51,284 nucleotides of DNA, from assembly GCA_947307055.1 (NCBI GenBank), contig CAMZHX010000015.1:1-51284 (forward strand), given 5' to 3'. The position numbers and the translations under genes are program-made. Shown in pieces: positions 4,161 through 21,450 of this stretch (position 1 is the first letter of the stretch; the number at the start of each line of letters is the position of its first letter). This stretch comes from an uncultured Selenomonadales bacterium. Its GTDB lineage: Bacteria > Bacillota > Negativicutes > Selenomonadales > Selenomonadaceae. The notes beneath the pieces were generated by a model. It ran no database searches. It saw only the letters and a list, made by a program, of their open reading frames with translations, and was not told where the DNA came from.

Positions 4161-5383
4161 TGCAGCTCAGTAAGGGTCAAAAAATCCCGCTCAACGAAAA
4201 TTCCTTAATTTTTAAGCTCGAACGCCAAAATTCCGCGCTCGAAATCGATATCGCCGCTTTTCTCACTCAAAATAACGGAAAAGTCGCTTCTGACGAGGAT
4301 TTTGTCTTCTACGGCAATACTAATCACATTTCAGGCGGCGTTTCCCATAAAAATGACGCCATCGAAGTAAATTTGGACAAAATCCCGCTTCACGTCGAAA
4401 AAATCTCTCTAACTGCCACTATTTACGACGCAGACGCCCGTAAACAAAATTTTAGCATGATTCAAGGCGCAGTTTTGAAGATTTTCGGCCTCTACGGCGA
4501 AATTGCCGCCTTCCCACTCGATAATTTCACTGTAGAGACCGCTATTGTGCTCGGCGAAGTCTATCGATATAAGGGAAATTGGAAATTCAACGCTACCGGC
4601 GCAGGTTTCAGCGGTGGTTTGGCCGCCCTTTGCAATAATTTCGGCATTGAAGTCAAAGATAACGTTCAAAATCCGCCTTCACCGCCTCAATCAACAAAAA
4701 TTAACACTCAACGCACTAAATCTTCCTCTAAACGCGAAAAAATTACAATTCCTCCGCCTCCAATCCAAAATCAACCTAAAAAAGTCGAACTTCGTAAGGG
4801 TCAGAAGGTTAATCTCACTAAAAAAGGCTCAAAACTCGGCGAAATCGTCATAAATCTCAACTGGAGCCAGCCTACAAAAAAATCCGGCTTCTTCGGCAAT
4901 ATCTTCGGAAATAATAGCGGCGGCATCGATTTGGATCTTGCTTGCCTTTTTGAACTCAAAGATGATACAATCGGAGCCATTCAAGCACTCGGAAATCACT
5001 TCGGCTCCCTAAATTCCCCGCCTTACATAGCTTTGGACGGCGATGACCGCACCGGAGCCGTCGCCGCAGGCGAAACTATTCGCGTTAACGGCAATTTCGC
5101 CGATAAAATTCGCAGAATCCTAATTTTTACCTTCATTTACTCCGGCGCGGCGAATTGGGAAGAGGCTAAGGGCGTCGTTACCGTAAATTGCCCCGGTTCG
5201 CCCGAACTTATCGTTAAAATGGACGAATACGGCTCGAAAAAACGCACTTGCGCTATCGCTTTGCTTGAAAATGTCGGCGAAACCTTCAGCGTAGAAAAAA
5301 TTGTCGACTTTTTCGACGATTCCGAGCAAATGGATAGAGCTTTTGATTGGGGATTGCGTTGGAGAGCCGGTTCTAAGGACTAA
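4160..5383 (+). CDS. TerA-like tellurium/stress-resistance protein, two TerD-family domains
   Basis: The N-terminal domain (about residues 1-165) is TerD-like (LSKGQKIPL, DEDFVFYGN, ATIYDADARKQNF, WKFNATGAGFSGGLAAL). A Pro/Lys/Ser-rich linker (about 170-205) joins it to a TerA-type domain (about 208-407: GGIDLDLACLFELKD, LDGDDRTGA, FIYSGAANWEEA, MDRAFDWGLRW). The Ter family is linked to tellurite, phage and envelope stress responses. Odd point: domain 1 lacks the acidic calcium-binding loop that the neighbouring TerD keeps (GAGEGDDEE); the equivalent stretch is only SHKNDAIEV, and DFDLDA has become EIDIAA. Calcium binding by domain 1 is therefore doubtful. It is coupled to the upstream glycosyltransferases by a one-base overlap. 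Confidence 0.85.
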   Translation: MQLSKGQKIPLNENSLIFKLERQNSALEIDIAAFLTQNNGKVASDEDFVFYGNTNHISGGVSHKNDAIEVNLDKIPLHVEKISLTATIYDADARKQNFSMIQGAVLKIFGLYGEIAAFPLDNFTVETAIVLGEVYRYKGNWKFNATGAGFSGGLAALCNNFGIEVKDNVQNPPSPPQSTKINTQRTKSSSKREKITIPPPPIQNQPKKVELRKGQKVNLTKKGSKLGEIVINLNWSQPTKKSGFFGNIFGNNSGGIDLDLACLFELKDDTIGAIQALGNHFGSLNSPPYIALDGDDRTGAVAAGETIRVNGNFADKIRRILIFTFIYSGAANWEEAKGVVTVNCPGSPELIVKMDEYGSKKRTCAIALLENVGETFSVEKIVDFFDDSEQMDRAFDWGLRWRAGSKD

Positions 5384-9762: not shown

Positions 9763-9816
9763 TTTATTTCCTCCCTTGTCTAGGATATTTCTTGCCACTG
9801 AAAGATTTTCCTGTCG

Positions 9817-12800
9817 TTAGGAATTTAAAGCAACGGCATTCCGAACCTCCAAAGGAATTTCGCCAAGAAAATAATCTTCTAGCAGATTCCAAATTGTCGC
9901 GCTAGTAAAATCGCCTTCGTAAATGTATTTGAGCATTTCTAGCGAAAAGTTATATCTTTCTTCCATATCCTTCAGGATTGTATTTGAATAAAATTTGTTG
10001 TTAACTATATTTTCCAGAATGTCAATTTGATTGATGTAGATTAAAAGCTGATTATTCAAGCCGCCGGTGATGTCAAAGGTCAATACCCCCATTGCCTCTA
10101 AAATGCCAAGCACCATATCAAAATCTTTTTTGTCACTAGTTATGTAAAAAACGCCGTTTTGCGTTCCAGCGGCAATCTGCATGAATTTATCTTCGACCAT
10201 ATTCAAGCAATTTTTACAATCCACTTTAAAGGAAAATTTATCATCATGTTGATTGATGGCATTTTCGGATTTCAAGAAGGCGATAAGAATTTCGCAAATG
10301 GTTTGCCCTTTTGAATTTCTTAGACCTTGTGCATTGGCAACAAATTCTTTACTAAATTCATCTAGCGAAATAGAATTCTTGCCGATATAAATATCTTCCA
10401 CCGTAGCTTTAAATTTGTCGAAGAGGTTTTGAAAAATCGAGATGGAATTCCTTCTAAACTCTATATTGGCGATGTAAGCCGGCCAAAGCGAACGAAGTTC
10501 TTCTGGAAGGGATTTGTCTTTGCAATAAATCATGCGCTTGAAGTTTGGAAAAGATTTGTCCCTTAAAGTTTTTTCCCAAATCCGTTTGAGATTCACGTTG
10601 TAAATATTTTTCTGAATGTCAATCGGCGCAACGCAATTTCCGTACTTTTCTTGAATATTCGAACAAGTTTGTTGCGTCATTTCAAAAAAGCCCTTAGCGT
10701 AAAGCGGCCACGGGCGCACGATTATCGGCGGGAAGCTATACTTTGCTTCCAAGTCTTTTTGAATAATTAGGAGAGCGATTTTTACTTTGTTAATTGTATC
10801 TTCTTCGTCTTCGGAGTTGGAAAAGATATACGAAAAGTTTTCCGCGTCTAGCATGAGAGCCTTTTTTTCGCTGAGTCGATAAATTTCGCAAATCTTTTTA
10901 GCCACGTCAACAAGCTGATATTCCTTTATCGCCATGCGATGAAAAAATTTCACGTACTTAAAATCGCTGCTGTCGTGATAATAAATTGCTTCGCCGTTCA
11001 AACCTTTTTTTCGAGCCGCCCGCCCAATTTCTTGAACATAATTGCAAACGTTGCCCGTCGGAGCAAAATGCATAACGGTTTTTATGTCGTCAATATCAAC
11101 GCCCATGCCGAAAGCCGTCGTCGCCAGCATGACCAAAGCTTCGCCGTTTTTAAAGCTATCGTAGCTCGTTTTCTTAGCGCATCTATACATTTGTCCGTGA
11201 TAAGTTTCAATGATTGGACTTTCAGCGAGTTTTTTTATTGCCTTATTGATAAGCTTTACCGACGGAAAATAAATCAGCAATTTTTCCAAATCTTCCTTAG
11301 CCTTCATTTTAGCCTTAAAGGTTTCCTGATTTTTTTTAGCCTCAAATGCCTCGTTGGCGGCATCAAAATTTTTTTGGGATTTAATTGCTTGGTCGACGGC
11401 CGCCGAAATTTCACCGAATTTATTTTGGCTTTTATTTATAACTATGTCGATGTCGTCGCGCTTGATGTAGCCCAAATAAGTTATTGGGTCTTCCATGTGC
11501 AAAGCCTTTATTATCTCGCCATACATGTCTTCTTTGCCGCCATAAATTGCCGTCGCCGTGAAGGTCGCGATTATAAAGGGATATTTCTTGCGCAATTTTT
11601 TTATGTGGTCACCCAGATACCAATAGTCCGGGCGAAATTCCTTGCCCCAAGTCGTGACAATGTGCGCTTCATCTATTACGACCAATCCTATTTTTCTGTC
11701 GCCGATGAGTTGTTCAACGTCGCTACGGCTTAAAAGCGTTTCGGGAGAAACGTAGAGGATATTGCATTCGCCCGCCGCAACCTTGTCGATAATTTCCTCT
11801 TTGAGAATTGGCGAAATGTCGGAGTTAATCGTTTTTGCCTCCTGATAATTTTTCAGCTCAAGATTTTGAACTTGGTCGTTCATCAAAGCAATTAGCGGCG
11901 AAATTACAATCGTCAGCAAATTATATTCCTTGGCAAGGTAAATCGCCGGCACTTGAAACATAACAGATTTGCCTGCGCCCGTCGGAGCCGTAACGAAAAT
12001 ATCACGAGAATCTTTGCCGTCTTTGCGAAGTTCAACCTGCTCGACAATGTCCGAAATAATTTGCTCCTGCGAAACGTCGCGAAGAATTCTTTCCCCACCA
12101 TAAAGTTTTTGACGGTCGTAGGCTTTAAAATTTCTGAAATCGTCGTAATCCCAATGCCTTTTTAAAATCTCATTGAATTCATCTCTGTGCTTGAAGACGG
12201 GAGCAATTTTTTCGGGACATACGCGGAAAATTTTCGTCTGCGCGGAAAAATATTTGCAGATGATTTTTAAACGCGAATCGAGTTCTTCACCATTGCCCGA
12301 ATAATTGCAAGTTCGTACGGAAATTTTATCGGGCTTATCGAAAATGATTTTCCGCACAAGGTCAACAAAGTCCGATTCTTCCTTCAAGTCAATAAAATCT
12401 GTTACATTGCTCAAATTAATTTCGACAAGCTCAACTTCGGCGGGCGCAAACAAATTTAAAACTGTGACCTTCGGTTTACTCAAAACTTCGTCATCATTGT
12501 AGACGCCGATTAAAAAGTTTTTGAACTCCTTGAGCCAAAAGATATTGGCAATTTTTTTATCTTTTTCGGAAAGGCTTTGAACTTTAGGATCGACGTTATC
12601 ATTCTCTGGCTCTGCGAAGTATTCGAGCAAAATTTTCTTTGTAGCGTCGTTGAATTTATCTTCAATCGGATATTGCTTCATGAAGAGATTGTTATTCAAA
12701 ATGTAAATTGAGTCGAAAGCGTCAAAAAAGTAAGTTTGCATTAGGAGAAATTCTTCATAGGTAAAAATTTTTCGCTCGCTGTCCACAAGTTTATTAAAAT

Positions 12801-12957
12801 ATCTGAAACGATTTTCCTTAGCCGCGTCCAAGTCTTCTGAAAAATTTTCGTCGCCGACAAAACTTAGCGGTATGCCCTTCAACACGACTGCAGAATTTTC
12901 TTCAGCTGAAATGCTTTTAAGTTTTTCGTCCAGTTGTCTTAAAATAATTTTATTCAA
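9817..12957 (-). CDS. Large RecQ-like superfamily 2 DNA helicase
   Basis: About 1046 residues. A N-terminal region of about 320 residues has no motif I recognise. The helicase core follows: Walker A TAPTGAGKSVMFQVPA near residue 325, ISPLIALMNDQV, the DEAH box near 427 (VVIDEAHIVTTWG), FTATA, then MLATTAFGMGVDIDDI and QEIGRAARKKG near 645. The core is RecQ-like, but a Lys/Glu-rich insertion (roughly 540-580) interrupts it and the canonical RecQ zinc-binding and HRDC domains are not apparent in the 400-residue tail. The start is a TTG at 12957 after AAAGGAGG; an in-frame TTG at 12975 would put that site inside the coding region. It sits just behind rpoD. Whether it is a repair or a defence helicase is unknown. 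Confidence 0.82.
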   Translation of the reverse strand: MNKIILRQLDEKLKSISAEENSAVVLKGIPLSFVGDENFSEDLDAAKENRFRYFNKLVDSERKIFTYEEFLLMQTYFFDAFDSIYILNNNLFMKQYPIEDKFNDATKKILLEYFAEPENDNVDPKVQSLSEKDKKIANIFWLKEFKNFLIGVYNDDEVLSKPKVTVLNLFAPAEVELVEINLSNVTDFIDLKEESDFVDLVRKIIFDKPDKISVRTCNYSGNGEELDSRLKIICKYFSAQTKIFRVCPEKIAPVFKHRDEFNEILKRHWDYDDFRNFKAYDRQKLYGGERILRDVSQEQIISDIVEQVELRKDGKDSRDIFVTAPTGAGKSVMFQVPAIYLAKEYNLLTIVISPLIALMNDQVQNLELKNYQEAKTINSDISPILKEEIIDKVAAGECNILYVSPETLLSRSDVEQLIGDRKIGLVVIDEAHIVTTWGKEFRPDYWYLGDHIKKLRKKYPFIIATFTATAIYGGKEDMYGEIIKALHMEDPITYLGYIKRDDIDIVINKSQNKFGEISAAVDQAIKSQKNFDAANEAFEAKKNQETFKAKMKAKEDLEKLLIYFPSVKLINKAIKKLAESPIIETYHGQMYRCAKKTSYDSFKNGEALVMLATTAFGMGVDIDDIKTVMHFAPTGNVCNYVQEIGRAARKKGLNGEAIYYHDSSDFKYVKFFHRMAIKEYQLVDVAKKICEIYRLSEKKALMLDAENFSYIFSNSEDEEDTINKVKIALLIIQKDLEAKYSFPPIIVRPWPLYAKGFFEMTQQTCSNIQEKYGNCVAPIDIQKNIYNVNLKRIWEKTLRDKSFPNFKRMIYCKDKSLPEELRSLWPAYIANIEFRRNSISIFQNLFDKFKATVEDIYIGKNSISLDEFSKEFVANAQGLRNSKGQTICEILIAFLKSENAINQHDDKFSFKVDCKNCLNMVEDKFMQIAAGTQNGVFYITSDKKDFDMVLGILEAMGVLTFDITGGLNNQLLIYINQIDILENIVNNKFYSNTILKDMEERYNFSLEMLKYIYEGDFTSATIWNLLEDYFLGEIPLEVRNAVALNS

Positions 12958-12971
12958 AAGAATTCCTCCTT

Positions 12972-14081
12972 TCAATCCAGAAAATCTTTGAGTTTTTTCG
13001 AGCGGGCAGGGTGACGGAGTTTGCGCAATGCCTTAGCCTCAATTTGGCGAATTCTTTCGCGGGTGACGTTGAAACTTTTGCTGACCTCTTCAAGCGTCCT
13101 AGCTCTTCCGTCTTCGAGTCCGAAGCGAAGTCGCAGAACATTTTTTTCACGCGGCGTCAAAGTTTCCAGAATGTCTTTAATTTGCTCTTTCAACACGGTT
13201 AACGACACGGCATCAAGGGGGGTTTGCGCTTCTTGGTCTTCTATGAAGTCGCCTAAATGTGAATCATCTTCTTCGCCGACGGGCGTTTCCAACGAGATAA
13301 GTTCTTGCGCAATTTTCTTAATCTCGCGGACGCGCTCGATAGAAATTTCCATTTCCCAAGCAAGTTCCTTGTCATTTGGCTCGCGACCATTTTTTTGCAA
13401 CAAGTTGCGCGAAACTCGATTCAATTTGTTAATTGTCTCTAGCATGTGAACTGGAATTCTGATTGTACGAGCTTTTTCAGCTATCGCTCGCGTTATCGCT
13501 TGACGTATCCACCACGTCGCGTAAGTCGAAAATTTGTAGCCCTTGCGATAGTCGAATCTTTCTACTGCCTTCATAAGTCCGAGATTGCCTTCCTGAATCA
13601 AATCCAAGAAGAGCATATCGCGCCCGATATATTTTTTGGCGATTGAAACGACAAGGCGCAAATTAGCTTCGGCGAGTTGTTTTTGAGCTTGGTCGCTTTC
13701 TTCTTCGTTGTCAGATGCCATACGTTTTGCCAACTTTCTTTCTTCTTCCGCAGTCAAGAGCGGCACGCGCCCGATTTCTTTTAAATACATGCGCACCGGA
13801 TCATCGATTGACCCGCTAATTTCGTCGCGAGGTTTAGATTCAGATTCATTTTCGCTCGAATCTTCGGACGGCGCATTTAAATCGCCAACGTCGTCGAAGG
13901 TTTCCTCGTCAATTATCTCTATACCTTCGCGCTGACAAATGCTGAAAATTTCGTCAATCTCATCATTTTCAGTTGAAACGCCTTGACTTTCAATAATTTT
14001 TTCAAGGTCGTCCCAAGTCAACTTCCCTCCGGTTTGTTTGCTCTTCAACTTCAAAAGAGAAGTTATTATATCGGTTTGCAT
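12972..14081 (-). CDS. rpoD: Primary sigma factor RpoD
   Basis: A 369-residue housekeeping sigma-70, short as in Bacillota. A region 1.1-like N-terminus and an acidic linker precede region 1.2 ([18 protein letters not shown]). Region 2 reads [19 protein letters not shown] then [17 protein letters not shown] (-10 recognition), and region 4 carries [20 protein letters not shown] (-35 recognition). AGGA before ATG 14081 supports the start. The gene usually found upstream, dnaG, is absent; an arginine-phosphatase-like gene lies there instead. Confidence 0.97.
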
Positions 14082-14094
14082 TTCTATTTCCTCG

Positions 14095-14517
14095 CTAAGA
14101 GATTTTATCGAGCAAAAGTTTGCAACCGCGCAAAATGTCCTCGTAAGTTTTGCTGAAACCGTTTTTGTCCCACGGAATATCTTTGTCTAGGAGCATATAA
14201 ATTTTATTATCTGGGTCGCCGCCGACAATCGCCTTGACCTGTTCGACGTTGCCCGCGTCCATGCAGACAATCAAATCATTTTCGGCGTATTCTTCGGGCG
14301 TGATAGTGTGCGCAATGTGATGAGTATAGGGCACACCTTCAATGCCGAGCTTGGCGGCTATGCCCTGATGTAATATTTCGCCGTTCGTCGGCTTACTCGC
14401 CGCACTCGACACCGAAACTTTATCGCTCAAGCCCGCGTCCTTAATCAACTTCTGCATAACGAATTGCGCCATCGGTGAACGACCGGTATTTCCACTGCAT
14501 ACGAACAAAATTTTCAA
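14095..14517 (-). CDS. Low-molecular-weight phosphatase, likely protein-arginine phosphatase (YwlE-like)
   Basis: A 140-residue LMW phosphatase. The P-loop reads [13 protein letters not shown] with nucleophile Cys7 and Arg13. Residue 11 is Thr, which in YwlE selects phosphoarginine, whereas tyrosine phosphatases of this fold have Ile there; that assignment is established for YwlE and inferred here. The C-terminal acid-bearing loop ([12 protein letters not shown]) is less canonical than the usual DP motif. The start is a TTG at 14517 with AAAGGAG upstream, which places the motif exactly as in YwlE. It is the first gene of the rpoD transcript. No McsB arginine kinase is in the window. Confidence 0.82.
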
Positions 14518-15241: not shown

Positions 15242-15247
15242 AACAAA

Positions 15248-18016
15248 TCATTCGTGCTCGGAATAAAGTTTCAAAAGCTCCAACGCAATCGCCAATTCGT
15301 CGTCTAAAATATTTTCAAAGCCATAGGCGGCGGCAACTGCGCGGTCGTTTTTTTTATGCGCCTCGCGCAAGTCGTAGGGCATGGAAATTTCGTCGTAAAG
15401 CTCGGCAAAAGTCGCCTCCGGATAATTTTTCCTTGCGTCTAATATCGCCTGCGCGGACGCCTCGATTGCTTGCCGTTGTTTATCGCTCGGCTCGCTCCAA
15501 ATAAAATTGTTGTACACCACGTTTCCTGAATAGCGATAATCCGATTTCAAACGCCCGCAAACCGTCCTTAGCCACGCCATATGAGTTGAACTCGTTAAAA
15601 CCCCAAAGTGATATAACGTCGCGTTCGGAATGATTGAAACTAAATTGCTTGCGATAATATCTGGCGTCATAAAGCCCATTGGAATATATTTGCGCCGTTC
15701 GGAGCTAACTTGCGGAACTAAAATATAATCTGTCGTCGGTTGAGAGATATAAGCAAAAACCGTCGGTTTGTCGGCTAATTTTTGCGTATCTTTGCGTTTA
15801 CTTGCCAAGCGAAAATCTCTAACGGCTTTGACGCGCTCATAAACCAATTTCATTTTTTTGAGTTCATTGGGCGGGCAATCGACGAGCCATAAACAATAAC
15901 GGAGCTTTCCATTTATAAATTCATTGGAGCCGACGTAGCGACAAATATATTTTTCTGCGGCGGGCTCGCGCTTAATAAAGTCTTTGTATTCTTCAGGTGT
16001 CAAAATTAAATTTCCGCCGTCAATAGGTTGATTCCCCCAAACAATTTCCGGCACGAAATTTTGAATATGATTAGGCCGGCTCTTGACGAAAATATTATTG
16101 GTGTCGAGTAGGTAAGCGTTGATATTATTGGCAGCAACTTTTTGGTCGTCGTGGAAAATAAATTTGGGCTTGTTATTGGGCGCGTAGCTGAATCCGACGA
16201 TAACGCAATGGACGTGCGCCTTTTGAGTGGATTCGCTATCCCAAATGAAAGTTCTGTAGGCAAAATCGATATGAATTCCTGCGTTGAAAATATTCTCCCA
16301 AAGGCGCGGGACGGTTTCGCCCTGAGCAATGGAATTAGTCGAGACGAAGGCGGCGCGAATGTTAGAATTAGTCATAAAGTCAGCGGCCTTCTTGTACCAG
16401 CAGGCGACGTAATCGAGGTTCTTGACTTTTGGGAAGATTTTTTGCATATCGGCTTTTTGAGCGGCAGTTTGATAGGTGAAGCCTACAAAGGGCGGGTTGC
16501 CGATTATATAGTTGGGTAGGTTGTTAGGTTGATAGGTTGTTAGGTTATTAGTTTCTATTTCCCTATTTCCCTCAAAAAGTTTTTTCCAGTCGAGTTGAAG
16601 GGCGTTGTCCTCGTGAATGTTGGCGTAGCTTTTGAGCGGCAGAAAATCCAGGTCGTGATGAATAATTTCGCGCGTCTCGTGAATCATTTGGAGTTCAGCA
16701 ATCCAAAGGGCAGTTTGAGCGACGGCAACCGCGAAGTCGTTAATTTCGATTCCGTAGAATTGCCCGATTGAAACTTTGATAGGGTTAACGAACTCGCCGA
16801 GCTGAATTTGGCTGCCGAAAATTTCTTTAAGGATTTGGTTTTCTAGGCGGCGCAGGCTCAAATAAGATTCGGTCAAGAAGTTACCAGAACCGCAAGCGGG
16901 GTCGAAGATTTTCAGCGCGGCGATTTTATCTTGGAAGGCGAGCAAATTTTTTTTACGGTTGCGCGTGGAGGTTTTGAGGTTTAAGAATTCGTCGCGGAGG
17001 TCGTCGAGAAACAGCGGGTCAATAACCTTATGAATATTTTCAAGGCTTGTGTAATGCATCCCCCCTGCGCGGCGGGTCGTGGGGTTCAAAGTTGATTCAA
17101 AGACCGCGCCGAAAATGGTTGGGGAGATTCCCGCCCAGTTGAAACCGCTTGACGCTTCGTTGAGCAGGAGATTTTTAATTTCGGGCGTGAAGTTTGGGAT
17201 TTCGATTGCGTCAGCGAACAAGCCGCCATTGACGAACGGAAATTTTTTCAGCGTGTCATCAAGGTAGGGGTCGCGGTCGTTTATGGGAGTATTTAGGGTG
17301 TCGAAGAGGTCGAGCAGGTCGCGGCGAATATTTCTTGCGACTTCGAGGTAATCGCGGAAAATTTTATGCTTACCGAAAATGCCGGCGGATTCAGCGTACA
17401 AACAAAAGACAAGCCGCACGCATAATTTGTTGAGGCTTGCCAAAGAGTTTTCGCTATTGGGATTGATATACTGACTGTGCAGGGCGTCGTAAAGTTTGCC
17501 GACAATTTCGCCGGCTTTGAGTGAAAGTTCCACTTCGACGAACGATTTATTTTGGGATTGGTCGATTAGGATATCGAGCGCGTGAAATTTTTCGGGCAAT
17601 TCAGAGAGCAAAATTTTAGTTGGCGCGTCGAGCGTTTCCATATCATAAATCAGGAACTCGGCGAAGTTGCAAACGACAATCCAGCGCGGGCGCATAGAAT
17701 AGGGCAAGGAGCTGCCGTAGCGTTGCGCCTGTTGGTAGGGCGTGAGGGTTGAGCCGTCTGACTGGGATTTTCCTTGCGCGAGGTTTTCCGAAAGTGATTT
17801 TTGTTCGATTATGACTTTGGTATCGGGCAAGAAGGCATCAATAAAGCTGGTGTGTTTAAGTTTGACGGGCACTTCAAAGCGGATGAGTTTTTCCGGCTCG
17901 GAAACTCCAAAGATATCGCGCAGGAGCGACAGCCAAAAAGTATGCGTTTCGCCCTTTTCGTAGCCGCGCCCCGACCATTGCGCGACGAATTTTTTAACGG
18001 GTGTAAGTTCAGGCAT
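15248..18016 (-). CDS. MmeI-type (type IIL) restriction-modification enzyme
   Basis: A single chain of 922 residues, nearly the length of MmeI (919). The N-terminal nuclease motif is D60 ... E71-Q-K73 (FIDAFLPDTKVIIEQK), a PD-(D/E)xK arrangement. A helical connector follows, then the N6-adenine methyltransferase: motif I DPACGSGNFL near residue 375 and motif IV NPPF near 505. The C-terminal 300 residues should hold the target-recognition domain. Type IIL enzymes cut and methylate one strand and need no separate methylase or specificity subunit. A run of short repeats encodes about 20 residues (481-501) just before NPPF. ATG 18016 overlaps the upstream gene by 8 bases with GGAG in front. Confidence 0.88.
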   Translation of the reverse strand: MPELTPVKKFVAQWSGRGYEKGETHTFWLSLLRDIFGVSEPEKLIRFEVPVKLKHTSFIDAFLPDTKVIIEQKSLSENLAQGKSQSDGSTLTPYQQAQRYGSSLPYSMRPRWIVVCNFAEFLIYDMETLDAPTKILLSELPEKFHALDILIDQSQNKSFVEVELSLKAGEIVGKLYDALHSQYINPNSENSLASLNKLCVRLVFCLYAESAGIFGKHKIFRDYLEVARNIRRDLLDLFDTLNTPINDRDPYLDDTLKKFPFVNGGLFADAIEIPNFTPEIKNLLLNEASSGFNWAGISPTIFGAVFESTLNPTTRRAGGMHYTSLENIHKVIDPLFLDDLRDEFLNLKTSTRNRKKNLLAFQDKIAALKIFDPACGSGNFLTESYLSLRRLENQILKEIFGSQIQLGEFVNPIKVSIGQFYGIEINDFAVAVAQTALWIAELQMIHETREIIHHDLDFLPLKSYANIHEDNALQLDWKKLFEGNREIETNNLTTYQPNNLPNYIIGNPPFVGFTYQTAAQKADMQKIFPKVKNLDYVACWYKKAADFMTNSNIRAAFVSTNSIAQGETVPRLWENIFNAGIHIDFAYRTFIWDSESTQKAHVHCVIVGFSYAPNNKPKFIFHDDQKVAANNINAYLLDTNNIFVKSRPNHIQNFVPEIVWGNQPIDGGNLILTPEEYKDFIKREPAAEKYICRYVGSNEFINGKLRYCLWLVDCPPNELKKMKLVYERVKAVRDFRLASKRKDTQKLADKPTVFAYISQPTTDYILVPQVSSERRKYIPMGFMTPDIIASNLVSIIPNATLYHFGVLTSSTHMAWLRTVCGRLKSDYRYSGNVVYNNFIWSEPSDKQRQAIEASAQAILDARKNYPEATFAELYDEISMPYDLREAHKKNDRAVAAAYGFENILDDELAIALELLKLYSEHE
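16511..16574. repeat. Short tandem repeats inside the MmeI-like gene
   Basis: On the + strand, units of the type TAGGTTGT/TAGGTTGA recur four to five times (16516-16550), then CTATTTCC twice (16554-16571). Both unit types also occur outside genes in this window (41151-41241, 31714-31741). On the coding strand they give the low-complexity NREIETNNLTTYQPNNLPN just before the catalytic NPPF. Confidence 0.75.
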
Positions 18017-20579
18017 TTTGTTCTCCTAAAATTTCAAGTGCTTTGCCGTGTTCCAAGAACATTGGCAACTTTTTATTGCACAAGCCCTGCATGTTGAGCC
18101 AATCGAAAATTTCTGCTTCGGAGTGGAAAGGATTTTTGGCGTGCTCGTTGACCAGAATTTTTATCAAGAACGATTCAAAATCGGGTGCGACGAATTCTTC
18201 TGAAATGAAAATCGCCGACGAAACTTTTATTGACGCTGAGGGGATTCTCAATCTGTAAGGCGGGTCTTCGGCGAGCATAATCACACCTTCCAGCAAGAAA
18301 CTATTCCAAGAAATTTTTAACTGCGGCAGTTTGTCGTATCCGCTGAAAAGGTGAATTGCCTTCCAGCCGCCGTTTTTCTCAATCTCTGCCCGAATAGTTT
18401 CCGCGACGGCAAAAATAATTTCGTCTGTGACGCCGATTGATTCGGGACGTATCAAAGTAAATTCGTCGCGGCGAATAAAATTCGGGCGCAAAATTTCAAT
18501 CAGATAATTTTTCGCGCTGTGGTACATTTGATTTTCCTCGCAAAGGGCGACGAGGTCTTTAGTTTTAATTTCGTCAATATCCTTCAGGAAGTCGAGCAAA
18601 ACTTTTTTATTATTGAGATTCTTAAGGTCGATGGTCGAAATGAACGGGCGCGAAAAATTGAAATCGTCTGGGAACATGTAGCGCAATACGTCGAAAAGTT
18701 TGTTATGACTTTGAATTTCGTTGCGTGCCATGAAGTCGGCGAAGTATTCGGAGAACAAATTGAACAGGGCGCGAGAAGTCAGAGGTTTGGAGCAATTTTG
18801 ATTGAGGAAATTTTTAATCGGCTCGAAATCATTTTCCTGCAAGTTCAAGCGCGAGCTGTAAATAATTTTTCCGTTGCCGGCGCGAATGACTTCGGGGCAG
18901 CGCAGGAGCAAGAAATTTACGTTGGTATCAGTAAGCGAGCGAAAATTTTCTTTAATCTCTTTGATTGTGACTTCGCCGCGTTCGGCAACGAAATTGTCGA
19001 ATTCCTTTGCCATATCGATTTCGTCTGCTTTAGTGATATAATCTTTACGGAAAGTATAGGGCAAGTTATAAAGTTTAATCACGCCCTGCAAAAAATAACG
19101 ATTAGTGATTTGCGTGCCGACGAAATAATTTTTCAACGTCCCGAAAATTTCTTTGTAAAAAATTGCGGTGCGGTCGGAGTTTTCGATAAAATTTTTAATG
19201 CGCTCGATAATTTCCGGCGGCACGTGAACAAAATCGGCGTGAATATATTTTCCGCGACTGCAGAGCACGCCGACTTTAGCAATAAGCGCGTCGAGTGCTC
19301 GTTGCGTGATATAGGAATTTTTGCCGAAAATCTTTTTAAAACATTGAATGAATCGCGAGTAAAAATTTTTATTACCGACCTTGTAGCCGTCTGGGAAATT
19401 TTCTTTTAGGACGTAAGCGCATTTAAAAGTTAAATTTAATCTGTCGCGATGAAAAAATTTTCCGCTATGATTATAAATTTTCAAGAGTTTAGTTTTTATC
19501 AATTCGGCGGAGCAATTTTTTTCGCGAGCCAAATTTGTAATTGTCTCGTCAAAAACAGTTTCTTCCATTACGTCTGGGAGATTTTTAATCAAATCATCGT
19601 TTTCAAGGGCGTTTTTATTGTGGAAAACAAAGGAATTGATTTCGTTATCGAAATAAAAATCATCGCATTGAAAATTAGTTTTTACGGCGAAGAATTGGAG
19701 AATTTCCGCGTCTTTTTCGTCCAGAAAATTTTTTAAATCGTTCGGAGTGATAAAAGATTTTCCGTCGGTCAGCGCGTACATAAAACAAATAATTTTCTTG
19801 ACGGCATTTTGTTTATTCAAGAATTTTTTGATGGATTTTAATTCAACTTGGCGAATTCTTTCGCGAGTGACGCCGAAATTTTTTCCAATACTAACAAGCG
19901 TAGATTTTTCGGCTCGAAGAATTATCATGTCAAATTCTCGTTTACTCTTGAATAAATCGGCGAAAAATTTTTTTGTGAACGCTTTTACATCGAAATACAT
20001 TGCGGCGGCGAAAATTTTAAGTTCTTCCGCATCGAATTTTGAAGGATTATCGGCGAAATGCGCGGGAAAATTCGCGACAGTCAAATCTTCGGGTAGGGCA
20101 GTAAAAGAATTGCTCTCCGTCAAATCGCAAGCGGGAAGGTAAAAGCGTACTTTTTTATTTTTAATTTCGTCGGGCAATTCGCTGAAAAATTTTTCTATCG
20201 CGGGCGCAGAAGGATTTTTGAACGCCGCGAGCTTTTCTTCGGTAAATTGCAGAGTTTTCACGGATACTTTTTCCCCTCTCGAATCGAAAAATTTACTCAA
20301 AGTTTCAAGAAGACTTTTGAAGGAAACGCGGCCGAAATTTTTCAAGCTCCGAAGTTTTTTTCTGGAGGCATTTAAAAGGTCGGCAAGATTATTGTAACCG
20401 TTGTCAGTCAAACATTTTTGAATACGGAAATTAAATCCCAATTCGGCGATTAAAATATTTTCATACGGCGCAGGGTCGTCGATATAAAAATAATTTTTCA
20501 GGGAATTGTTGAGTTCGTACGAAACATTTTGCGGCGAAGAAATTTCTTCGGTAAAATTATTTGTTTGCAAAAATATCAT
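18009..20579 (-). CDS. Large DNA-binding protein with RNAP alpha-CTD-like and sigma-region-4-like domains
   Basis: 856 residues from ATG 20579. Residues 40-95 resemble the RNA polymerase alpha C-terminal domain (helix-hairpin-helix: FRIQKCLTDNGYNNLADLL, LRSLKNFGRVSFKSLLETL). Residues 212-255 resemble sigma-70 region 4, with [20 protein letters not shown] nearly matching RpoD's own region 4. The remaining 600 residues look like successive 70-90-residue helical units ending in strand-like turns, consistent with an array of winged helices (possibly HARE-HTH type), but this is inference. No nuclease or ATPase motif is visible. TTG 20570 is an alternative start with better spacing from GAGGT. Overlap with the restriction-modification gene and a private promoter make these two a cassette. 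Confidence 0.72.
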   Translation of the reverse strand: MIFLQTNNFTEEISSPQNVSYELNNSLKNYFYIDDPAPYENILIAELGFNFRIQKCLTDNGYNNLADLLNASRKKLRSLKNFGRVSFKSLLETLSKFFDSRGEKVSVKTLQFTEEKLAAFKNPSAPAIEKFFSELPDEIKNKKVRFYLPACDLTESNSFTALPEDLTVANFPAHFADNPSKFDAEELKIFAAAMYFDVKAFTKKFFADLFKSKREFDMIILRAEKSTLVSIGKNFGVTRERIRQVELKSIKKFLNKQNAVKKIICFMYALTDGKSFITPNDLKNFLDEKDAEILQFFAVKTNFQCDDFYFDNEINSFVFHNKNALENDDLIKNLPDVMEETVFDETITNLAREKNCSAELIKTKLLKIYNHSGKFFHRDRLNLTFKCAYVLKENFPDGYKVGNKNFYSRFIQCFKKIFGKNSYITQRALDALIAKVGVLCSRGKYIHADFVHVPPEIIERIKNFIENSDRTAIFYKEIFGTLKNYFVGTQITNRYFLQGVIKLYNLPYTFRKDYITKADEIDMAKEFDNFVAERGEVTIKEIKENFRSLTDTNVNFLLLRCPEVIRAGNGKIIYSSRLNLQENDFEPIKNFLNQNCSKPLTSRALFNLFSEYFADFMARNEIQSHNKLFDVLRYMFPDDFNFSRPFISTIDLKNLNNKKVLLDFLKDIDEIKTKDLVALCEENQMYHSAKNYLIEILRPNFIRRDEFTLIRPESIGVTDEIIFAVAETIRAEIEKNGGWKAIHLFSGYDKLPQLKISWNSFLLEGVIMLAEDPPYRLRIPSASIKVSSAIFISEEFVAPDFESFLIKILVNEHAKNPFHSEAEIFDWLNMQGLCNKKLPMFLEHGKALEILGEQNA

Positions 20580-20609
20580 CCTACCTCGCTTAATTTTATA
20601 ATCGCCGAT

Positions 20610-20639
20610 ATTATAGCACATAAAAAGAAAATTTTGCAA
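20610..20639 (-). promoter_or_regulatory. Strong promoter of the HTH/MmeI-like cassette
   Basis: On the minus strand TTGCAA (20634-20639), an 18-base spacer and TGCTATAAT (-10 at 20610-20615) form a near-consensus extended -10 promoter, immediately after the stop of the export permease. The cassette can therefore be transcribed on its own. Confidence 0.65.
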
Positions 20640-20640
20640 C

Positions 20641-21450
20641 TCAAAGCACGTCGGCAAAATGCGGGCGCAATTTCCTAAAACACCACGCCCCAACTAACAT
20701 AATTATTGCCGTCACGAGCCAAAAATATATCGTCAAATGCCAATGCTCCCAGAAAAATTCCTTATAAATAAAACTTTGTCTGTAGCCTTCAATCAAATAA
20801 TATGCGGGATTTAATTTCAAAAAGGGCTGAATTTGTTCAGGAATGACTTTTAAATTCCAGAAAATCGGCGTGCCCCAAAAGCCAAATTGCAACATCATCG
20901 TGACGAATTGCCCAATATCGCGCACAAAAACTGTCAAAGCACTCGTCAGCCAAGAAATTCCCGTCGCTAAACAAATCATCGCGAATAAGTAATAAATTAT
21001 TTGTAAGTTGTAAATCGACGGAAAATGACCGTAAATCGCAAACATCAAGAATAAAACGACGATAAAAAAGCTATGAACGACTAATGCCGAAATAATTTTG
21101 ACAATCGGGAGCAATTCTACGCGAAAAACTATTTTTTTTACTAAAAACGCGCTCTCAACTATGGAATTCGTCGCGCTTTGAATGCTTTCGTTCAAAAAAA
21201 ACCACGGGAACATTCCGCACACTAACCACAAAATAAAAGGGAAATTATTTACGGGCGTCGATTTAAAGCCAACTTGGAAGACAAACCAAAATATAAATAC
21301 TGTCACCGTCGGTTGAATAAACGCCCATAAAATTCCCAAATACGAACTAATATAACGCTGTTTGAAGTCGCGAATCATCATCTGCCATAAAAATTTCCGA
21401 TTTATTACGATGTCGCGAATTAAACCGAGTAATCCTCTTAAAATCCTCAT
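20641..21450 (-). CDS. ABC-2 polysaccharide export permease (Wzm/TagG type)
   Basis: A 269-residue membrane protein with about six hydrophobic segments. The N-terminal amphipathic stretch and MMIRDFKQRYISSYLGILWA, followed by QPTVTVFIFWFVF, are typical of O-antigen or teichoic acid exporters, as are the WGTPIFW and LNPAYYLIEGYRQ segments near the C-terminus. Such permeases need an ATP-binding partner (Wzt/TagH), normally the next gene; here the next gene is the HTH/restriction cassette and no such ATPase exists in the window. It follows the MATE gene by 5 bases. Confidence 0.88.
   Translation of the reverse strand: MRILRGLLGLIRDIVINRKFLWQMMIRDFKQRYISSYLGILWAFIQPTVTVFIFWFVFQVGFKSTPVNNFPFILWLVCGMFPWFFLNESIQSATNSIVESAFLVKKIVFRVELLPIVKIISALVVHSFFIVVLFLMFAIYGHFPSIYNLQIIYYLFAMICLATGISWLTSALTVFVRDIGQFVTMMLQFGFWGTPIFWNLKVIPEQIQPFLKLNPAYYLIEGYRQSFIYKEFFWEHWHLTIYFWLVTAIIMLVGAWCFRKLRPHFADVL

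Follow-up and report, generated by a model that had tools for sequence, protein, structure and literature searches.

The window analyzed here, a stretch of 51,284 nucleotides, carries a two-gene cassette at positions 15243 to 20644. Both genes are real and lie on the minus strand. The first, P0001 (18009 to 20579, with its ATG at 20579 and its stop codon at 18009), encodes an 856-amino-acid DNA-binding protein of a family that often leads BREX type 4 operons, and the second, P0002 (15248 to 18016), encodes a 922-amino-acid restriction-modification enzyme of the MmeI type (type IIL). As a preliminary description of this DNA had stated, the stop codon of the first gene and the start of the second share 8 bases (18009 to 18016, minus strand). 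The borders of the cassette were taken from a comparison with a sister genome (G050): DNA homology extends to 15242, where trmK ends, and starts again at 20645, where an ABC transporter gene ends. The flanking blocks are 80% and 84% identical to the window, and the block between them has no counterpart in the two G050 stretches compared. The flanks lie on separate contigs in the sister genome, so that the cassette falls at a border of rearrangement, and no clean empty site was observed. Behind P0001, the order is MmeI and then trmK; among 30 trmK loci read (the window and 29 of 59 other matches, with 1500 bases on each side), an LMWP gene was common to the window and the sister genome only. 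A search of the cassette for terminal repeats gave no pair that we took as an end repeat, and one repeat pair (D3), of 26 nucleotides at 15292 and 20438 and 88% alike, lies inside the two genes.

A motif scan located a promoter-like site, TTGCAA-18-TATAAT with a TG-extended -10 box, at 20610 to 20639 on the minus strand. The near-consensus promoter of the preliminary description survives in that this site, at 10/12, ranks among the top two of 14 matches; less favorable to it, 11.2 matches were expected in shuffles, and a TG-extended -10-like box stood at the corresponding place in only 3 of the 14 relatives printed (G112, G103, and G056). At the 5' end of P0001 (20560 to 20579), five T residues follow ATGATA in the window and in G103, and six follow it in G112, G056, and G088, in which the frame is moved (starts of L031, L030, and L034). 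This difference could be a switch, or merely reflect another start codon.

A separate cassette lies nearby on the minus strand (9817 to 14081), where a gene for an RpoD-like sigma factor of 369 amino acids overlaps one for an SF2 helicase of 1052 amino acids, matching PADLOC model C3a193 ("poss. alt. Cas3") with an E value of 1e-134. The block from 9775 to 14114 is absent from the sister genome G050, and its flanks are contiguous there. The helicase was found at 22 loci in 21 of 66 genomes of the genus, and 18 of the 22 have a short sigma-4 match on the upstream flank, which in G111 lies within 600 bases of a partial helicase match. Whole sigma genes beside the helicase were checked in the window only. 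This conserved pairing of sigma factor and helicase is possibly a defense system of its own.

P0002 matched all five MmeI Pfam domains above the cut-off and has the type IIL architecture, with nuclease, helical spacer, N6-adenine methyltransferase (16154 to 16966, minus strand), target recognition domain (15494 to 16102, minus strand), and C-terminal domain in one chain. The match to the solved MmeI structure (PDB 5hr4) runs over residues 10 to 908, and that to the PADLOC type IIG model over residues 7 to 920. The nuclease motif D60...E71-Q-K73 (17798 to 17839, minus strand) aligns with D70...E80-M-K82 of MmeI, so that the D...ExK residues D60, E71, and K73 are kept. The methyltransferase carries its motifs DPACGSG and NPPF as well, and by its sequence P0002 is an MmeI-type (type IIL) enzyme with no part missing. 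Enzymes of this type protect DNA by methylating one strand and work without a partner. The parts of PMC4833311 used here name D70, E80, and K82 as the nuclease residues of MmeI and describe it as a single-chain enzyme. In the genus, MmeI methyltransferase domains were found in 53 of 66 genomes, versus 17 of 66 for the family of the HTH protein P0001.

P0001 combines three kinds of module, all read on the minus strand. An alpha-CTD-like domain at residues 39 to 95 (20295 to 20465) was matched by Pfam RNA_pol_A_CTD with an E value of 2.9e-10, and Foldseek aligned the AlphaFold2 model of the protein with a cyanobacterial RpoA CTD over 60 columns (TM by target, 0.87; rmsd, 1.4; 32% identity), a match standing at rank 25 of the list with an E value of only 0.095. 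A sigma region-4-like HTH spans residues 212 to 255 (19815 to 19946); its Pfam match, at residues 218 to 252, is weak here (E value of 1.7e-4, 21.4 bits versus a cut-off of 24.1) and exceeds the cut-off in the relatives L036, L065, L067, and L066, at 32.9, 31.2, 29.4, and 39.3 bits. Both domains had been proposed in the preliminary description, and both are borne out. The tail, from about residue 257 to 850 (18030 to 19811), had been described as repeated helical units; it is indeed a repeated array, modeled not as simple helical repeats but as winged helices in tandem, about seven or eight of them on our reading of the DSSP string. The model has a mean pLDDT of 85 and a pTM of 0.50, the latter leaving the arrangement of the domains unsure. 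Its best Foldseek matches, all with low TM, were UFL1, Dcc1, and SelB, all three of them winged-helix proteins, plus unrelated large assemblies. The HARE-HTH fold, which had been suggested for comparison, gave no Pfam match at E values up to 1, and that identity was discarded. P0001 is not a sigma factor, as it has region 4 with no Pfam match to sigma-70 region 2 at E values up to 1, nor an RNA polymerase alpha subunit, as the CTD was matched without the N-terminal assembly domain.

A search of 189 genomes of the order with the single sequence returned relatives in 17, all of them in the genus. A tail profile reached further, naming 25 loci, 14 in Selenomonadaceae or Selenomonadales records (the genus) and 11 in Clostridia, Sporomusa, Treponema, Flexilinea, and more. 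Run against 380 genomes of the class, the tail profile matched 20, of which 18 belong to the genus (one matched over 29 residues only) and two are G261 and G296, a Sporomusa; a phylum sample of 398 genomes, scanned with a wider profile, gave six with matches, namely five new ones and G296 once more. This profile homology over the winged-helix tail places P0001 in the family of BREX-4 leaders. Single-sequence scans of viral and GTDB contigs, tblastn of plasmids and phages, and a profile scan of viral contigs were unproductive. We count the family as 36 loci, 19 in 17 of the 66 genus genomes and 17 outside the genus; the remaining matches of the genus search were short sigma or alpha matches and are excluded from the 19. 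Of the 19 genus copies, eight are damaged by breaks, truncation, or partial deletion, and another runs off a contig end. Among the members outside the genus, G761 and G421 are remote. A sigma-4 Pfam match without an alpha-CTD match was obtained for G549, G390, and G761, and the BREX-4-adjacent leader of G421 (8509 to 10683 of L171) has neither of these Pfam matches and shows a phage-integrase SAM-like match at its N terminus. In a Clostridiaceae MAG, two leader-family genes stand in tandem (6639 to 11299 of L069), with no BREX nearby.

The neighborhoods of the family are often those of BREX type 4. BrxP is encoded immediately or one gene downstream of P0001 homologs at 19 of the 36 loci, usually followed by BrxC and PglZ, and the taxa with such leaders are Selenomonadaceae, Sporomusa, Clostridia, and one Chloroflexota. 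The preliminary description had made its case depend on a neighborhood link of the HTH protein to restriction or defense genes, and that link is found. Its proposal of an undescribed defense system made of the HTH protein and MmeI is not supported, since MmeI lies directly behind the leader at 1 of 36 loci, that in the window, versus 19 with BREX-4 genes immediately or one gene behind, and MmeI is common in the genus; on the same counts, a recurrent two-gene system was rejected.

Within the genus, 12 of 19 loci have BrxP (PADLOC PDLC02510) no more than about 190 bases downstream of the leader. Of these 12, 11 continue with BrxC sequence and 10 with PglZ, in some cases broken; the exceptions are two contigs that end before pglZ and G101, which has no brxC. 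A 13th locus, in G056 (1943 to 7671 of L030), has the leader and then fragments of brxP, brxC, and pglZ in that order; some 400 bases beyond these decayed BREX genes, an MmeI gene lies on the opposite strand, perhaps marking a stage of BREX decay beside MmeI. A weak AbiJ match there is the BrxC fragment among the brxP and pglZ fragments, and an AbiJ partnership was dismissed. With G056, the loci other than the 12 number seven: the window, with MmeI; a solitary leader in G078; truncated copies behind a ResIII-type helicase gene in G054 (contig C76) and G071; a contig end in G094; and a remnant in G075. At 4324 to 5838 of L038 and 9649 to 11163 of L039, a gene of 504 amino acids precedes leader copies that have neither the alpha-CTD nor the N terminus; that of L038 encodes a ResIII-type helicase with a zinc ribbon.

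Outside the genus, BrxP-BrxC-PglZ adjoin the leader at 7 of 17 loci, directly in five (L065, L067, G261, G390, and G421) and after one gene in two (L061 and G549). BREX was absent from the fetched stretch at eight loci (L062, L066, L068, L069, L071, L072, G382, and G761), of which L066 and L068 are alike and L069 and L072 are alike, so that the independent cases are fewer, and the contigs of the other two are too short. PADLOC named BrxP, BrxC, and PglZ in G077; BrxL was named in G077, G088, and Sporomusa, the three clusters in which the test reached far enough. A gene of 238 to 249 amino acids between leader and brxP (4798 to 5547 of L061, 6162 to 6878 of L168) gave sub-threshold matches to HNH (L061, E value of 0.018) and to type IV restriction (E values of 0.007 and 0.025).

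The genus holds another BrxP clade, 31.6 to 34.5% identical to the first. Twelve of its loci were fetched, and 11 have an upstream gene of 457 to 554 amino acids; that of L094 has 268. An alignment of ten of these upstream genes, of about 460 amino acids, matched P0001 residues 347 to 842 collinearly (hhalign probability of 97.5, E value of 8.8e-12), against a probability of 3.7 for the reversed alignment and at most 0.7 for eight column shuffles. A leader with this tail therefore stands in both BREX-4 clades here. Three copies of the gene gave no Pfam match at all, including to alpha-CTD and sigma-4, and the RNA-polymerase-like modules thus belong to one of the two clades.

How the window came to hold its pair may be read from the relatives. 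A tree built from 20 tails joins the window copy to the solitary leader of G078, inside the BREX-linked clade of the genus, on a branch whose support (91/99) falls slightly short of the tool's starred threshold; the order of branching above it is uncertain. In the closest BREX relatives, the leader ends in ILGE or LSE plus the stop codon, and brxP starts within some 25 bases. The window leader reads three codons further and overlaps the MmeI start, so that the junction lies at the stop codon, where the relatives continue into brxP. In four close MmeI relatives, the match to the window begins at about codon 7 and is missing upstream of it. The window leader is not next to BrxP, and its genome (56 contigs, 88% complete) gave no BrxP match at E values up to 1e-20. 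Because the copy is nested in a BREX-linked clade, the genome has no BrxP match, and the junction falls at the stop codon, we read the window pair as a probable partner replacement, in which BREX-4 would have been lost and MmeI captured behind the leader, in an order of events that we infer.

P0001 itself appears to be maintained. Changes unique to the window copy, among seven genus copies, stand at 0.128, 0.070, and 0.269 of the scored codon positions 1, 2, and 3, compared with 0.139, 0.072, and 0.253 for the BREX-linked copy of G079, whose branch is of similar length, and 0.121, 0.070, and 0.257 for the solitary copy of G078. With a constraint equal to that of a BREX-linked copy, P0001 is unlikely to be a relic; the pattern speaks against decay without tying P0001 to MmeI.

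Of the roles put forward in the preliminary description, control of expression is the likeliest for P0001; sensing of a phage takeover of RNA polymerase and delivery of the nuclease would be merely putative ones. We favor an operon controller because of the leader position, the promoter-like site, the presence of DNA-binding modules only, and the survival of the gene beside an unrelated enzyme. The family consists of large DNA-binding proteins that often lead BREX type 4 operons (leader-brxP-brxC-pglZ-brxL). Through its alpha-CTD, sigma-4, and winged helices, the leader would bind the promoter region of its operon and tune the expression of whichever DNA-attacking enzyme follows, and could for that reason change partners. 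In the window lineage, a type IIL gene would have taken the place of the lost BREX genes directly behind the leader, so that MmeI, overlapping the leader's stop codon, would now be under the leader's promoter and its control. We give about an even chance to this whole reading, in which a DNA-binding leader associated with BREX-4 serves as an operon controller and has come to be paired with a type IIL enzyme. Counting against it are the eight of 17 loci outside the genus with no BREX in the fetched stretch, the small share of relatives (3 of 14) with the -10-like box, and the slightly low support of the branch joining the window copy to G078. As the window holds the only direct MmeI pairing, co-function could be chance. 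To our knowledge, moreover, a winged-helix-array protein of 850 to 1100 amino acids is much larger than known operon repressors.

A second explanation, possible yet distinctly less probable, is that the family is a structural subunit for DNA scanning or recognition in BREX type 4, a counterpart of the BrxA and PglW modules, that in the window recruits MmeI or works alone. The long winged-helix array fits this explanation, as does the tail shared with the leader of the other BREX-4 clade, which was without alpha-CTD and sigma-4 in three copies. An N-terminal module of about 70 amino acids also leans this way, being carried by 11 of the 14 BREX-adjacent copies that were scored versus 2 of 11 others, counts that include related rather than independent sequences and, among the 11, the truncated G054 and G071. 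It is absent from BREX-adjacent G549, G390, and G421 and present in the nonadjacent first copy of L069 and in G761, and we regard it as a trend and not a rule. Scored and left out of the count were G102 (damaged N terminus), G056 (a BREX remnant that has the module), G075 (remnant), and the contig-end copies G094, L063, and L070; unscored were G074, G101, G054 C224 and C94, L071, and L072, although N-terminal profile matches were seen in G074, G101, and G054 C94 in the genus profile search. Two points count against a structural role in the window: its copy lacks the module, and the enzyme beside it is of a kind that needs no partner, a single chain in MmeI itself. The parts of the BREX survey PMC12839542 used here favor a structural subunit, as they describe winged-helix arrays in structural BREX subunits such as BrxA, attribute to PglW three wHTHs along with an alpha-CTD-like domain, and assign a multi-wHTH component to every BREX type.

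It is unlikely that P0001 is a mere BREX relic or passenger, with MmeI having landed behind its promoter and being translated through the overlap without any functional link. The abundance of MmeI genes in the genus, the MmeI gene past the decayed BREX genes of G056, the damage to other genus copies, and the missing N-terminal module would all suit such an origin, but the 856 codons are intact, their codon-position pattern equals that of the BREX-linked copy, and an intact solitary copy persists in G078. More speculative still is a partner-independent defense controller, with promoter-contact modules of RNA polymerase on a winged-helix scaffold, that would tie release of the enzyme, BREX-4 or restriction, to the state of host transcription during phage infection and would pass from one system to another as its downstream genes are replaced. 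Action of P0001 in trans on a BREX-4 system elsewhere in its genome was rejected, as that genome, 88% complete, gave no BrxP match.

A BREX-type leader before an unrelated one-piece restriction enzyme points to a defense-associated protein able to change partners. The family is a candidate further component of BREX type 4, a large leader with RNA-polymerase-like DNA-binding modules that adjoins BREX genes in two phyla, Bacillota and Chloroflexota. The leader is unnamed in the parts of PMC12839542 used here, and our search of the literature on BREX gave no paper on it by title or abstract. The window amounts to a natural experiment, one that has kept the leader and changed the effector behind it. 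Control of both MmeI and BREX would make the leader a transferable control part; otherwise, the locus shows how defense operons decay and are refilled.

Set against known systems, the family resembles BREX type 4 (BrxP-BrxC-PglZ-BrxL) in the position of its members before brxP, and the window differs in having no BREX gene behind P0001. P0002 is like MmeI over nearly its whole length, with the catalytic residues kept, and differs in sitting behind an unrelated DNA-binding gene. MzaA of the MZA system likewise has a sigma-4-type HTH in a large defense protein, but the match is limited to 39 residues (223 to 261 of P0001, 625 to 663 of the 683-position profile) and is not full length. P0001 is about three times larger than BrxR and has no WYL domain (no Pfam match at E values up to 1). 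It nevertheless shares with the BrxR/WYL regulators, as treated in the parts of PMC9122589 used here, the character of a DNA-binding protein coupled to various defense systems. P0001 also differs from PglW of BREX type 2 in having no kinase domain (Pfam), yet it has the same succession of an alpha-CTD-like domain and then wHTH modules that PMC12839542, in those same parts, describes for PglW.
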